Source: a virus. Taken from it: a DNA stretch of 38,921 nucleotides. Positions 6,776-33,973 of this stretch are shown here, piece after piece. The DNA lies in IMG/VR virus record IMGVR_UViG_3300042695_001486, positions 1 to 38,921 of that record; one strand, 5' to 3'. The notes beneath the pieces were generated by a model. That model worked only from the letters and a program-made list of their open reading frames with translations. It did no database searches and was not told the DNA's origin. The position numbers were made by a program, and so were the translations under genes. The first letter of the stretch is position 1; every line of letters begins with the position of its first letter.

Positions 6776-6825
6776 GGGGGAGGTTCCTTGATTAACTGGA
6801 ATTTTTTTAGGACTTCCCCCAATTT
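6776..6825 (+). terminator. Long hairpin with short T-run
   Basis: GGGGGAGGTTC at 6776-6786 pairs with GGACTTCCCCC at 6810-6820 (about 11 pairs including two G-U), with a 23-base loop, then AATTTTT. It could terminate plus-strand readthrough, or form the first hairpin of a short RNA started at the TATATTTG box at 6749. Confidence 0.5.
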
Positions 6826-6831
6826 TTAAGC

Positions 6832-6882
6832 ACCCTTGGAATAAATGACTTGCAGCGTTTGTTTCGAGGGTTTTTTATTTTT
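6832..6882 (+). terminator. Intrinsic terminator upstream of lipoprotein gene
   Basis: ACCCT (6832-6836) pairs with AGGGT (6867-6871). An inner stem GGAATAAATG/CGTTTGTTTC, including several G-U pairs, closes an 8-base loop, followed by TTTTTTATTTTT. Its 3' half (GTTTCGAGGGTTTTTT) resembles the terminator after the lipoprotein gene (GTTTCGGGGGTTTTT). Confidence 0.7.
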
Positions 6883-6943: not shown

Positions 6944-7333
6944 ATGAGAAAAGTTACATTAATTTTAGCATTGGCATTCTTTACAGGATGTGCTACAATC
7001 ACCACAGGTTCAAGGCAAGATATTACAATCTACACTAAGCCTGAGAACGCAAAAGTCTTCATTAACGGAAACAAGGTAGGCGAAGGAACCTGCACTGTTG
7101 AGGTACAAAAGAAGAAGAAAAACACTATTATAGTCAAGGCCGATGGCTACGAAACGGCTCAAATTAGGACTAATCGGCAGGTAAGGGCTGGGTATGCTGT
7201 TGCCAATATTGGTATGTGTTTCATTCCGATGGTAAACTTTTTCGGTATTCCTTCGTTAATAGTAGATGCTTGTACAGGAGCTTGGATGATTCAGGACGAG
7301 GACGAGTATCATTTTGATTTGGAAAAAAAATAG
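6944..7333 (+). CDS. PEGA-domain lipoprotein, probable phage moron
   Basis: 129 aa. Residues 1-16 form a lipoprotein signal peptide ending in the lipobox FTGC, with Cys16 as the lipidation site. Residues about 25-65 are a PEGA-type beta domain (KPENAKVFING, then a KADGYE stretch). A hydrophobic helix-like part (about 75-110) contains the DACTGA motif common in phage and bacterial PEGA lipoproteins. The gene stands alone, flanked by two related terminators (6832-6882 and 7409-7457). This is the arrangement of a moron, a gene expressed apart from the lytic operons. Surface roles such as superinfection exclusion are possible but not shown. Confidence 0.75.
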   Translation: MRKVTLILALAFFTGCATITTGSRQDITIYTKPENAKVFINGNKVGEGTCTVEVQKKKKNTIIVKADGYETAQIRTNRQVRAGYAVANIGMCFIPMVNFFGIPSLIVDACTGAWMIQDEDEYHFDLEKK

Positions 7334-7343
7334 TTTAAGTTTG
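7313..7343 (+). promoter_or_regulatory. Promoter for leader RNA/replication operon
   Basis: TTTG at 7313-7316, a 19-base spacer, then TAAGTTTG at 7336-7343: a full match to the Bacteroidota housekeeping-sigma consensus. The expected transcription start is about 7350. The -33 box lies inside the end of the lipoprotein gene. It drives the three-hairpin leader at 7350-7457 and, after readthrough, the operon beginning at 7470. Confidence 0.75.
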
Positions 7344-7349
7344 TAGTGT

Positions 7350-7457
7350 ATTAGATTACAATCTGTGTGGAAGCAGATACAAGAAATTTCCTTCTTCATG
7401 GGAAAACGAACCCCTTGAAACGAGTGCCTTCCACCACTTGTTTCGGGGGTTTTTAGT
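7350..7457 (+). ncRNA. Three-hairpin leader/sRNA with kissing loops (copy 1)
   Basis: From the predicted start (about 7350) to the terminator the RNA is about 106 nt. Hairpin 1: ATCTG 7361-7365 with CAGAT 7374-7378, loop TGTGGAAG. Hairpin 2: TTTCC 7387-7391 with GGAAA 7401-7405. Hairpin 3 is the terminator, whose loop CCTTCCAC (7427-7434) contains CTTCCAC, the exact complement of GTGGAAG in loop 1 (7 pairs). The same design, with different loop sequences, occurs at 33865-33973 on the other strand. It could be a free small RNA or an attenuator whose loop-loop contact affects termination before the 7470 operon. Confidence 0.6.
7409..7457 (+). terminator. Intrinsic terminator before replication operon
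   Basis: ACCCC, GAAAC and AGTG on the 5' arm pair with CACT, GTTTC and GGGGT on the 3' arm, closing an 8-base loop, followed by TTTTT. It lies between a strong promoter and the first gene of the replication operon, so that operon needs readthrough or another promoter. Confidence 0.75.
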
Positions 7458-7469
7458 TTAAGGAAAGTT

Positions 7470-7697
7470 ATGAAAACAGGTAAAACAGAATCTCACTACT
7501 ACTTTCAAGTTGTATTGGTAGATTTAAAAACAAATGCAATAGATAGAGTTATTTGCGTTTATCACAATTCTCTGAGGGATTTAGCCTACAAAGAGTGTGA
7601 TGAAATGAATCTGAATAAGCCGGAAGGGTTTATTTTTAGGGTGGTAACAGTAGAGGTTGTTTTACCAATTATGCCTTCGGTCACAGAAAATGTCTGA
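7470..7697 (+). CDS. Small hypothetical protein heading the replication operon
   Basis: 75 aa from the first ATG after the leader terminator (13 bases downstream). It has alternating strands and one predicted helix around residues 30-45. No recognised family. Its 3' end overlaps the start of the initiator-like gene by 8 bases, so the two are probably translationally coupled. Confidence 0.6.
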   Translation: MKTGKTESHYYFQVVLVDLKTNAIDRVICVYHNSLRDLAYKECDEMNLNKPEGFIFRVVTVEVVLPIMPSVTENV

Positions 7698-8751
7698 CAG
7701 TAAATTTGCAAGGGTTTACTTTGAGTGGATACAGGAATACGGACTATCTGTATTGGAATGTGCATTCTTAGACAGGGTAGATTACTACTCAAACCTATCA
7801 GATACGGAGGAAAAATGGTGCTATGTAGGCAAGGATAAGTTAGCCAAGGAATTTAATGTAACAAAGCAAACTATTTTAAATTGCGTCAAAGGTCTTGTTG
7901 AAGATAACTTGCTGATTAAGAATAACAAAGGATGGATTAAAGTAAACTTAGGGGGTCTAAAAATTAGACAGTCAAAAAATCATACCGGTCAAAAAAATAG
8001 ACCGGTCAAAAAAGTTTACTCTAAGGGGTCTAAAAATTTGATTTTAGGGGGTCTAAAAACTTTACCCAATAAGAATAATATAAAAGAAATATTAGAAGAA
8101 TCTAAATATCATTCCTCCGATTTTTCTGAAACGAAAATCGAAGGCACTCCCAATGAAGATTTTTCAATTGAAATCGAAGAAACTATTCAGCAACCTGAAA
8201 CATTGCAGGACGAACCTCGTAAAGAACCAAAACCTGCATCGCACCCATTCAAAATGACAAATGATGATATTGAATATTTAATGCCGTACCACAATGGGTT
8301 GATTGAAGAAATTAACAAACTTGCTAAGGTTAAGTATTCAAAAAAAATAAATTCGATTTGTAAGGCTTTCCATTGCTTAGATAAAAATAAAATAATGCTC
8401 AGGTGTATTTACACATATTTTCGAACTTATAGAAACACTAAAGACGAATACGCAGTGGTTGTTCATAGTCTTGAATCTTTTGCCAATAAGATTGAGAAAC
8501 TTATGAATGAAGCCGAAAAACAAACAAGAGAACTTGAAACAAAAAAACAATCAAGCATTTACCACATTGACCACGAAAGAAGAGTTGTTGTTTTTAACTC
8601 ATGGAATAATGTTCCACAAAAAGACATTGAAATACTTGAAAATTTAGTTCATGAAAAAAAGTATATGCCAATACCAATGAAACCACTTGTAGGGCAATAT
8701 AAACCATACAACAGACAACCTGAAATTCCTAAAAGAAATACCTTCGCCTAA
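7690..8751 (+). CDS. Replication initiator-like winged-helix protein
   Basis: Start at ATG 7690 (353 aa); the longer frame from 7657 lies inside the previous gene. Residues about 40-90 form a winged helix-turn-helix (LAKEFNVTKQTILNCVKGLV). A basic, repetitive linker (about 90-130, with repeated GGLK) follows, then a long helical C-terminal part. It ends in a TAATG overlap with the primase-helicase gene. The layout (DNA-binding N-terminus, iterons in the linker-coding region, helicase next door) matches lambda O/DnaD-type initiators that mark the origin and load the helicase. The family is unverified. Confidence 0.65.
   Translation: MSDSKFARVYFEWIQEYGLSVLECAFLDRVDYYSNLSDTEEKWCYVGKDKLAKEFNVTKQTILNCVKGLVEDNLLIKNNKGWIKVNLGGLKIRQSKNHTGQKNRPVKKVYSKGSKNLILGGLKTLPNKNNIKEILEESKYHSSDFSETKIEGTPNEDFSIEIEETIQQPETLQDEPRKEPKPASHPFKMTNDDIEYLMPYHNGLIEEINKLAKVKYSKKINSICKAFHCLDKNKIMLRCIYTYFRTYRNTKDEYAVVVHSLESFANKIEKLMNEAEKQTRELETKKQSSIYHIDHERRVVVFNSWNNVPQKDIEILENLVHEKKYMPIPMKPLVGQYKPYNRQPEIPKRNTFA
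7951..8063 (+). repeat. Six iterons inside the initiator gene, candidate origin
   Basis: Six direct copies of GGTC(T)AAAAA have their GTC at 7955, 7971, 7988, 8005, 8028 and 8051. Spacings are 16, 17, 17, 23 and 23 bases. Copies 1, 5 and 6 read GGGGTCTAAAAA; copies 3 and 4 read ACCGGTCAAAAAA; copy 2 is AGTCAAAAAA. An AT-rich stretch with many TAATA/AAATA runs follows directly (about 8064-8115) and could be the unwinding element. The layout parallels the lambda origin, where iterons lie inside the O gene. Confidence 0.6.
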
Positions 8752-10589
8752 TGGATACCTTCGAGGCACATGGAATAATCGGGGTAAACTACTCTAAACA
8801 GGACGAACAACTATTGCTTTGCCCTGTTTGTAGCCATACCCGTAAGAAGTCAAAAGACAAATGCCTCGGAGTAAATGTAGGTAAAAGTCTTTGGGGGTGC
8901 AATCATTGTGGGTGGTCAGGAAAACTAATCACAGAACCTACATACAAAGTTCAACCAAAAATCTACTCATTGCCAGAAGTAATTGTTTCTCCACTTTCAA
9001 ACAAGGCTATTCTTTGGCTCGAAAAAGATAGAGGAATAAACCGACAAACTATGTCGGAGTTCAAACTTTTTTCTACTACAAAATACTTTCACGCAAAAGC
9101 AGAACTAAAAGCCGGTGAAATTTCCTGCATAGGTTTTCCATACTTTCGAAATGAAATAATTGTCAACTGCAAGTACAGGGATGGTAAAAAGAGATTCACC
9201 TTTGAACCTGGGGCTGAATTAATCGCTTATAACGAAAACTCAATTTTAGGCTCATTAGAGATAGTTATTGTAGAAGGTGAACTCGATGTATTGTCTGTAT
9301 GGCAAAGTGGCTACAAAGGGGTTATTTCGCCACCTAACGGGGCTAATTTGAATAGAAACAACCTCGATTGGCTTGATAGGATATATGACAACTTTGAAAA
9401 AGTAACCAAAATAATCATTGCAGTTGATAATGACCAAGCAGGGGAAAGCCTTAAAACAGACCTGATTCGTAGGTTTGGAAGTGAAAGAGTTTGGTTAGCG
9501 GAATGGCCAGAAGGATGCAAGGATGCCAATGATGTATTAGTCAAGTATGGTGAATCTTTAGTTAAAAAGTGCTTATCCGAGGCTAAGCAAGTTCCATTAG
9601 AGGGTATTGTTGACTATGAAAAAATTGGTAGTTCTGTATTGAATTTCTATCAAAACGGATTACCGCAGGGGTTATCTACCCAATGGTCAAAGTTCTCTGA
9701 ATTGTTTAAGATTATCAGAGGGGAGTTTATGGTAGTAACCGGAATACCTTCTCATGGTAAGTCTGTATGGAGCGAAAACTACATGATGCAATTATCAAGG
9801 CTTCACGATTGGAAGTTTGGAGTATGTGTTTTTGAATCAGATCCAGATGTTATGACTTTGAATCTTATACAGGTTTTGATAAAAAAGAAGTTTTTTGGTT
9901 CTCAAAGGCTATCTGAGATTGAAATGCAGTATGCTTTATCGTTTATTAAAAATCATTTCTATTTCTTTGATGTAGGAGAATCCTCCAATACCTTAGACAA
10001 TATTTTGCAAAAAGGAGAGGAGCTTGTAAGGAGGTATGGAATAGATACACTTTATATTGACCCTTGGAGTTATGTAGAGAAGGACAAGGGTAGAATGAGT
10101 GATGCTGAATTTTTTGAGGCTCAGTTGCCAAAGATTAAGAGGTTCAGGATAAAGAATAATTGTGGGGTATTGCTTGTTGCACACCCAAGAAAAATGGATA
10201 GGGATAAGACAACTAATAAACTTAGAGTTCCTGAACCATATGACATTGGAGGTAGCAATCAATGGTTTGGTGCCCCTGATAAAATAATTAGTGTTTATGC
10301 AGACTATACGGATGATGGGAAAATTGCTAATCATTCTGTTTATATTCACAAGCAAAAGAAGTGGTGGCTTGGTAACAAGGGAGTAGTTGAATTTAAGATG
10401 TTGGAACATGGAGAGTTTATTGAATTGCACGAATATAACCAGCGAGATATGAACCCAGCACCTGATTTTAAACAAAGACAGGCTAATGATGACACAATGA
10501 AGTTTAAGACAATAGAAGAAGATGAACAAGAATCAGAATACAGTGCAGGAGTTAGAAACTCTATGGACGATCCTCCAGCCCCTTTTTGA
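8751..10589 (+). CDS. TOPRIM primase-helicase (T7 gp4/Twinkle-like)
   Basis: 612 aa. Zinc-finger cysteines C24/C27 and C50/C53; TOPRIM acidic residues E175 (VEGELD) and D226/D228 (VDNDQAG); DnaB-type RecA domain with Walker A GIPSHGKS (331-338), E362 in FESD, Walker B LYID (D437) and AHPRK near 477-481. It would unwind the fork and prime lagging-strand synthesis. The last residues, MDDPPAPF after an acidic segment (589-594), resemble the acidic tip of SSB proteins, which is unusual for a helicase. Start ATG overlaps the initiator stop by 1 base. The next gene may start inside its 3' end. Confidence 0.92.
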   Translation: MDTFEAHGIIGVNYSKQDEQLLLCPVCSHTRKKSKDKCLGVNVGKSLWGCNHCGWSGKLITEPTYKVQPKIYSLPEVIVSPLSNKAILWLEKDRGINRQTMSEFKLFSTTKYFHAKAELKAGEISCIGFPYFRNEIIVNCKYRDGKKRFTFEPGAELIAYNENSILGSLEIVIVEGELDVLSVWQSGYKGVISPPNGANLNRNNLDWLDRIYDNFEKVTKIIIAVDNDQAGESLKTDLIRRFGSERVWLAEWPEGCKDANDVLVKYGESLVKKCLSEAKQVPLEGIVDYEKIGSSVLNFYQNGLPQGLSTQWSKFSELFKIIRGEFMVVTGIPSHGKSVWSENYMMQLSRLHDWKFGVCVFESDPDVMTLNLIQVLIKKKFFGSQRLSEIEMQYALSFIKNHFYFFDVGESSNTLDNILQKGEELVRRYGIDTLYIDPWSYVEKDKGRMSDAEFFEAQLPKIKRFRIKNNCGVLLVAHPRKMDRDKTTNKLRVPEPYDIGGSNQWFGAPDKIISVYADYTDDGKIANHSVYIHKQKKWWLGNKGVVEFKMLEHGEFIELHEYNQRDMNPAPDFKQRQANDDTMKFKTIEEDEQESEYSAGVRNSMDDPPAPF

Positions 10590-15560: not shown

Positions 15561-15652
15561 AGTCAGGTGGCGAAACGGTAAACGCAGTGTAGTACAATGT
15601 GACCACTACGGGTGAGATACCCAGATTACAGGTTCGAATCCTGTCCTGACTA
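15561..15652 (+). tRNA. tRNA-like gene, class II shape, aberrant anticodon arm
   Basis: Acceptor AGTCAGG (15561-15567) pairs perfectly with CCTGACT (15645-15651), discriminator A, no encoded CCA. D-arm GCG/CGC with GG in the loop. Long variable arm GGGT/ACCC (15610-15622). T-arm ACAGG/CCTGT with loop TTCGAAT (15628-15644). The anticodon arm is wrong: the best stem is GTAGT/ACTAC with an 11-nt loop, and a normal 5+7 arrangement has three mismatches. It is either a degenerate or atypical tRNA or a tRNA mimic. I cannot assign an amino acid. Confidence 0.55.
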
Positions 15653-15668
15653 CACATCCACCCAGAGA

Positions 15669-33434: not shown

Positions 33435-33549
33435 TATTATTATTTGTAATACTTACTACGATGTTTTACTTTTTTTGTTGCAGTAAATTATAGTTATTTA
33501 CTATTATTACTATACTTTATACTACTTACTTAACTATACTTCCTCTTTG

Positions 33550-33837
33550 TTAGACCCTGAGATTACTGAAAGTAGTACCATCCCCAAATTTGCTTCCAAA
33601 TCCAGGTTGGTACCTTTCAGTTTCAATCAGTAACAGGTTTTCCTCCCCGTTGAGCCCTTTCGATAAACTGCCCAATAGTCAACACATATGTGCTATTAGG
33701 TTGGAGCCGACTTTCAGGTGATATGCCACCCATCCAAACACTGTTTCTCCTTTGTAGTCAGTTTGCGGTGTGTTAGGAATCCCCCCGGTACCGCTTTTAG
33801 TTAGTACCCCGGTGGTCTTTATTCCCTCCCGATACAT
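33550..33837 (-). pseudogene. Open frame split by one in-frame TGA
   Basis: From ATG 33837 the minus strand encodes 52 residues, then TGA (33681-33679), then another 42 codons in the same frame up to TAA at 33550. Both halves have ordinary protein-like composition (KGETVFGWVAYHLKVG; ENLLLIETERYQPGFGSKFG). This may be a broken gene, a readthrough gene, or chance frames over a structured RNA, since a strong hairpin covers the 3' half. It starts 28 bases beyond the sRNA terminator. Confidence 0.35.
33561..33628. other. Long imperfect hairpin with inner stem-loop
   Basis: ACTGAAAG (33565-33572) and GTACCA (33575-33580) pair with TGGTAC (33608-33613) and CTTTCAGT (33614-33621), 14 pairs with a 2-base bulge. 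GATT/AATC extends the base. The loop holds an inner ATTTG/CAAAT hairpin. Too regular for chance; an RNA element or protein-binding site. Confidence 0.55.
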
Positions 33838-33864
33838 AACCGAGTTGCTTTCCAGGTATCCCTA

Positions 33865-33973
33865 TAAAAAGAAAAAACCCTGAAGGGTAGTGCGACCTCA
33901 GGGTTTCTTGGTAAAATACTGGGTAAAAGCCAGTAAAATCTTCAGTTACTCATTGACACGCACTACCGTAACA
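33865..33973 (-). ncRNA. Three-hairpin leader/sRNA with kissing loops (copy 2)
   Basis: Minus strand, about 108 nt. Hairpin 1: GTTAC (33972-33968) with GTAAC (33949-33945), loop starting GGTAGTGCG (33967-33959). Hairpin 2: TACTGG/CCAGTA (33935-33917). Hairpin 3: AAACCCTGA (33906-33898) with TCAGGGTTT (33883-33875) then TTTCTTTTT; its loop holds CGCACTACC (33894-33886), the exact complement of the loop 1 segment (9 pairs). Same architecture and length as 7350-7457, with unrelated loop sequence. It precedes operon G. Confidence 0.65.
33875..33906 (-). terminator. Intrinsic terminator of the minus-strand sRNA
   Basis: A 9-pair stem AAACCCTGA/TCAGGGTTT with a 14-base loop (8 bases if the inner GG/CC pairs form), followed on the minus strand by a strong T-tract. 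On the plus strand the T-run is short, so the signal faces left. Confidence 0.75.

Follow-up and report, generated by a model that had tools for sequence, protein, structure and literature searches.

In the window, the stretch of 38,921 nt that we analysed (positions 1 to 38,921 of IMG/VR virus record IMGVR_UViG_3300042695_001486), a predicted three-hairpin RNA stands in front of a replication operon, and the loop of its first hairpin (H1) is complementary to the loop of its terminator. Together with its relatives, this R1-type kissing leader is a new family of predicted phage RNAs. Based on the covariation across relatives, the contact between the two loops is almost certainly real, and it is probably what decides whether the operon is turned on. 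We thus describe a covariation-supported family placed at the putative switch point of replication operons, with complementary loop sequences (here called words) that appear interchangeable. Two questions can be tested on it cheaply and directly: what a kiss to the loop of a terminator does to termination, and whether RNA loops sort phages as they do plasmids. The naturally occurring words, most of them orthogonal, also form a ready collection of RNA parts. All data are sequence, from metagenomic contigs of which some are fragments.

The R1 element occupies positions 7361 to 7454 on the plus strand (99.5 bits with covariance model R3). Its promoter, at 7313 to 7343, has boxes of the Bacteroidota type, TTTG at -33 and TAAGTTTG at -7. 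H1 (7361 to 7378) consists of the stem ATCTG/CAGAT and the loop TGTGGAAG with the word GTGGAAG, the second hairpin (H2, 7387 to 7404) is formed by TTTCC and GGGAA, and the intrinsic terminator (7409 to 7454) carries the word CTTCCAC in its loop CCTTCCAC and closes with a T-run ending at 7454. GTGGAAG and CTTCCAC are exact complements. The fold had a minimum free energy of -36.5 kcal/mol (z = -4.25), and none of 200 shuffled sequences folded equally well. A long GC-rich stem, with GGGGG and then TTTTT, was found in every R1-type member, as expected of an intrinsic terminator. Promoter, order of the hairpins (by folding) and complementarity all agreed with the preliminary description of this DNA.

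An R1-type paralogue was located at 6784 to 6875 (plus strand, 37.6 bits), upstream of a gene for a PEGA lipoprotein. Its terminator loop holds the word CTTGCAG, as in contig L203, without a matching H1 loop, and because the two loops are not complementary it was counted as decayed. That the terminator was kept here without the contact counts against attenuation by kissing. PEGA-type lipoprotein genes adjoin R1-type elements in opposite orientations in the window (6944 to 7333, plus strand) and in contig L276 (7007 to 7396, minus strand).

Searching viral contigs with DNA patterns based on the terminator yielded R1-type elements on 16 new contigs, and genomes G001 and G006 contributed three further ones. 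Including the window, the R1-type elements now number 20, on 19 contigs, with 13 distinct sequences and six words (GTGGAAG, GTGAGAG, GTGGCAG, CTGCAAG, CGGCAAG and CTGGCAG). All 13 distinct elements keep all seven loop-loop pairs, the terminator loop being the exact complement of the element's own word. The kissing helix was 100% paired on alignment A6, where four of the seven pairs vary on both sides, three are invariant and none varies on one side only. This covariation collapsed when the partner was slid by 1 to 3 columns or shuffled. When the terminator loops were permuted among the elements, none of 200,000 permutations reached the observed 91 of 91 Watson-Crick pairs, a proportion that is not a true probability as the sequences are related. 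Covariation also extends to the stems of H1 and of the terminator, and the H2 stem of contig L252 has a compensatory change (TTTGAC/GTCAAA).

A loose scanner for kissing loops found about 40 matches in real and 39 in shuffled DNA, so a lone 7-nt match within 110 nt is not significant, and the scanner was rejected as proof of the contact. A strict rule, requiring an H1 of 5 bp, a 7-nt complement enclosed in a terminator stem of 7 bp, and a T-run, recovered only family members and zero other sites from 5.98 Mb of collected sequence, both strands included. Other terminator sites with the same 16-mer did not show the loop-loop contact. It is because of the covariation across relatives, the decisive evidence, that the contact is judged real, and this supports the earlier proposal that it is functional. 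Homologues were also checked for loops that vary without complementarity, and the pairing was kept in all but the decayed paralogue. Since retrieval by pattern favours elements that share the terminator 16-mer, it underestimates the real diversity and could have missed any members that combine a different terminator with the absence of the contact.

A second RNA had been described at 33865 to 33973 on the plus strand, with the same length and order as R1. This R2 element does exist, although it is the minus strand that carries it, at about 33976 down to 33865. The R2-type element counted from the -7 box region to the T-run spans 33983 to 33868 (108.4 bits with model R1, built from alignment A4). 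The plus-strand reading was rejected, as the plus-strand fold is different and weaker and the promoter lies on the minus strand. The order of the parts is indeed that of R1; the length is the same only roughly, the H1 loop being larger in R2. All on the minus strand, the -7 box TAACTTTG is followed by H1, with the stem GTTAC...GTAAC and an 18-nt loop holding the word GGTAGTGCG at 33959 to 33967, then by H2 (TACTGG...CCAGTA) and by the terminator stem and loop (33876 to 33905) with the word CGCACTACC at 33886 to 33894. As claimed before, the loops differ from those of R1 and are yet complementary to each other, over 9 bp.

R2-type relatives were retrieved via the large terminase-like gene, giving seven distinct elements and three further words (GGTAGTGC, GGTGGTGC and GGCTTGAC). 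Their kissing pairs are Watson-Crick in 55 of 56 cases, and the remaining pair is G-U. In G011 the word GGCTTGAC is common with G006 and the H2 hairpin with G015, which indicates that the kissing arms and H2 assort separately. Cross-scores between the R1-type and R2-type models reached only E values of about 0.5 to 3. The large gene near R2 had one weak match to a phage terminase and no Pfam or PHROG match, and we take it for the large terminase subunit. The position of R2 near this putative terminase gene prompted us to consider a pRNA-like packaging role, which was dropped because it is replication operons that R1-type elements lead.

The region next to R2 in the window, G006 and G011 has no conserved ORF and no gene follows directly, which counts against an explanation of the elements as operon-leader attenuators. 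In most of the 82% relatives (L114-L120, L124 and L125) a GIY-YIG endonuclease gene lies a few bases 3' of the R2 terminator, where the window has a structured region instead. That region, of about 370 nt at 33470 to 33860 (minus strand), lacks a conserved reading frame (1-nt indel relative to G006) and is conserved in G011, where both partners have changed in 10 pairs. It gave no Rfam match above threshold and is a probable second structured RNA.

R1-type RNA is very probably the leader of the operon downstream of it. The first ORF of the R1-led operon (7470 to 7697, plus strand) has its ATG 15 nt after the T-run, and a Toprim primase/helicase gene follows at 8751 to 10589 (plus strand). A start codon was found 11, 13 or 15 nt after the T-run in 16 of 16 R1-type elements; that of copy A in G001 opens only a 30-codon frame running into copy B. 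At least seven different genes follow the R1-type elements, mostly unrelated to each other and often replication genes. The first genes include a DEAD/ResIII-type helicase, replication-initiator-like proteins and small ORFs, and in G414 the element is followed by a small ORF, an initiator-like gene and a DnaB-like helicase, in that order. Between the window and G006, leader and upstream DNA are 99-100% identical up to the ATG, whereas the downstream gene is different. An exact TAnnTTTG box precedes 13 of 15 R1-type and 7 of 7 R2-type elements, compared with 3.3% of random 70-nt windows. The fixed spacing of 11-15 nt before unrelated genes leaves no room for a separate promoter of the next gene, and it therefore points to R1-type RNA as a 5' leader. 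It also fits the attenuator in front of the replication operon that the preliminary description had considered.

The loop words were found to change faster than their surroundings. In four of five close pairs the word positions differ by 29-43%, and the flanks of those four by 3-10%. Contigs L233 and L264 are 100% identical downstream and 94% upstream of elements with the words CTGGCAG and GTGGAAG, respectively. At R2, the flanks of the window and G006 are about 98-100% identical, whereas the RNA of ~95 nt between them is about 50% identical and still self-complementary. The tandem copies in G001 have different words, and so do the elements of every genome that holds several. Matched words were calculated to pair at -8.6 to -11.1 kcal/mol, and most mismatched words pair far more weakly. 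Orthogonality is not complete, as cross-pairing of the CTGGCAG and GTGGCAG loops reaches about -9 kcal/mol. That words are exchanged rapidly among close relatives and differ between tandem copies argues for recognition beyond one molecule, although the swaps could come from recombination without selection.

These differences between words within one genome, the apparent swapping of alleles, which suggests specificity in trans, and the complete unit from promoter to terminator would also suit a stable trans-acting small RNA or a homodimer. Its loops would target other RNAs or one another, the terminator would end the sRNA gene, and the next gene would be transcribed otherwise. We consider this unlikely, since the start-codon spacing before unrelated genes leaves no room for such a promoter and the loop words of the window and G006 had no clear excess of matches elsewhere in these genomes. 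Extra matches to the R2 word in G001 sit in apparent coding sequence. Less probable still is a purely structural role, in which the kiss would anchor the 5' end at the terminator, producing a constitutive terminator or a nuclease-resistant leader, and compensatory mutations would let the words drift with no trans recognition involved. The distance between H1 and the terminator, constant at 40-45 nt within the R1 type, suits an intramolecular contact, and covariation by itself needs no partner in trans. However, the words of the close pairs diverge faster than neutral compensation suggests, and the R2 RNA was replaced between phages with nearly identical flanks.

That the R1-type element is an attenuator we regard as likely on the sequence features above, and we lean towards an explanation in which R1 and its relatives would be 5' leaders of early phage operons working as transcription attenuators. 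Most transcripts would stop at the terminator and give an RNA of ~100 nt, and some would read through into the operon, the 7-bp kiss between H1 and the terminator coupling the fold of the leader to the frequency of termination. More weakly, the terminated RNA of one genome copy might recognise the nascent leader of a copy with the same word, through two complementary loop pairs per dimer, and shift termination there. The output of the operon would then fall with rising copy number, and phages with different words would not interfere with each other. Action between molecules is proposed because near-identical phages carry different words; that the contact also serves in trans as self-recognition is a tentative suggestion. 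Slightly more speculative is a self-recognition code, by which terminated RNA would silence same-word leaders in co-infecting genomes and words would diversify like plasmid incompatibility groups. If true, this would be RNA-only copy control or superinfection exclusion without an antisense gene. An alternative antiterminator helix was sought in the element and none was identified, which counts against the attenuator. No tyrosine integrase (PF00589) was detected in 12 family contigs, several of them fragments (control genomes were positive in 14 of 14 cases), so that a role in lysogenic immunity has no support.

Attenuation could in principle give way to put-like or protein-dependent antitermination, in which RNA polymerase would be modified for the operon by the leader fold or by a phage protein that binds it. 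One phage does have elements at the head of both of its two major operons, as HK022 has putL and putR (PMC9378689). A put RNA, however, consists of two stem-loops related in sequence that bind RNA polymerase, whereas the element here ends in its own terminator and has diversifying loop sequences, which makes this very improbable. Chance complementarity in ordinary terminators, although the loose scanner did equally well on shuffled DNA, is hardly credible, being refuted already by the covariation across 13 elements and further opposed by the strict rule and by the contact-free terminators that share the 16-mer.

At gathering score, Rfam 15 gave only a tRNA in the window and nothing in five relatives, and permissive Rfam scans of R1 and R2 returned sub-threshold matches only. 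A tRNA-like gene, to which ARAGORN assigned no anticodon, lies at 15561 to 15653 (plus strand). No member was found in named phage and plasmid collections, nor a convincing one in about 400 sampled Bacteroidota genomes, where the searches drew largely the same genomes under strict filters. Tandem matches in the Bacteroidota genomes (G103) have promoter and terminator without a kiss and were rejected; sites of the pattern TTTGTTNCGTTGTTACGG outside the phage group were likewise unrelated and kiss-free, and serve as negatives. The scanner found no element in distant helicase relatives or in Flavobacterium, Cellulophaga and PJN03 phages, and a terminase-profile search of genome contigs gave nothing. 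No description of such an RNA was found in the literature covered, which excludes most subscription journals. The earlier statement that this layout belongs to no described family thus held across Rfam, the collections and this literature. The nearest relatives of the primase/helicase among named phages include Cellulophaga and Flavobacterium phages, which together with the promoter type suggests a Bacteroidota host.

Among known systems, the likeness drawn in the preliminary description to T-box leaders, which are defined by Stem I, a specifier loop and the antiterminator T-box sequence, was not borne out, as no Rfam T-box match appeared at gathering score or in permissive scans. Type III toxin-antitoxin loci also place a terminator between an RNA unit and the gene behind it. 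ToxI, however, is a pseudoknot repeat before a toxin nuclease, whereas the genes here are mutually unrelated and include replication proteins. The put RNA of HK022 is a hairpin RNA heading early phage operons (PMC9378689) and acts by binding RNA polymerase, without a terminator of its own or described loop-loop complementarity, both of which the element here has. The two stems of put bind the beta' zinc-binding domain of the polymerase and suppress termination. In phage P4, the CI RNA from the leader of the replication operon pairs with leader segments (seqA/CI/seqC) and causes premature termination (PMC4825925), but CI arises by processing of the leader and its role is in lysogenic immunity, whereas here the element's own terminator is in direct predicted contact and the 12 contigs lack a detected integrase. 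Changes in RNA loops define compatibility in plasmid copy control, and the compatible subgroups IncK1 and IncK2 are only five RNAI nucleotides apart (PMC10724649). ColE1 and I-complex RNAI likewise differ by few loop nucleotides between close relatives; the element here, by contrast, is a self-complementary phage operon leader. The attenuators of pIP501 (RNAIII/repR) and pT181 similarly sit in leaders before replication genes. A precedent is pIP501, where attenuation in the rep leader is brought about by an antisense RNA (PMC4981023), and inhibition is reported there to need two complementary loop pairs at once (Heidrich and Brantl 2007, cited in PMC4981023). Our search for a convergent antisense promoter, limited to the TAnnTTTG box, found none on the opposite strand in or up to 150 nt downstream of 18 of 22 elements. 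By analogy, the element would have loop-loop recognition and premature termination in common with these plasmids. Their leader, however, pairs with an antisense RNA made from the opposite strand, whereas in this family the two loops belong to one and the same sense transcript.
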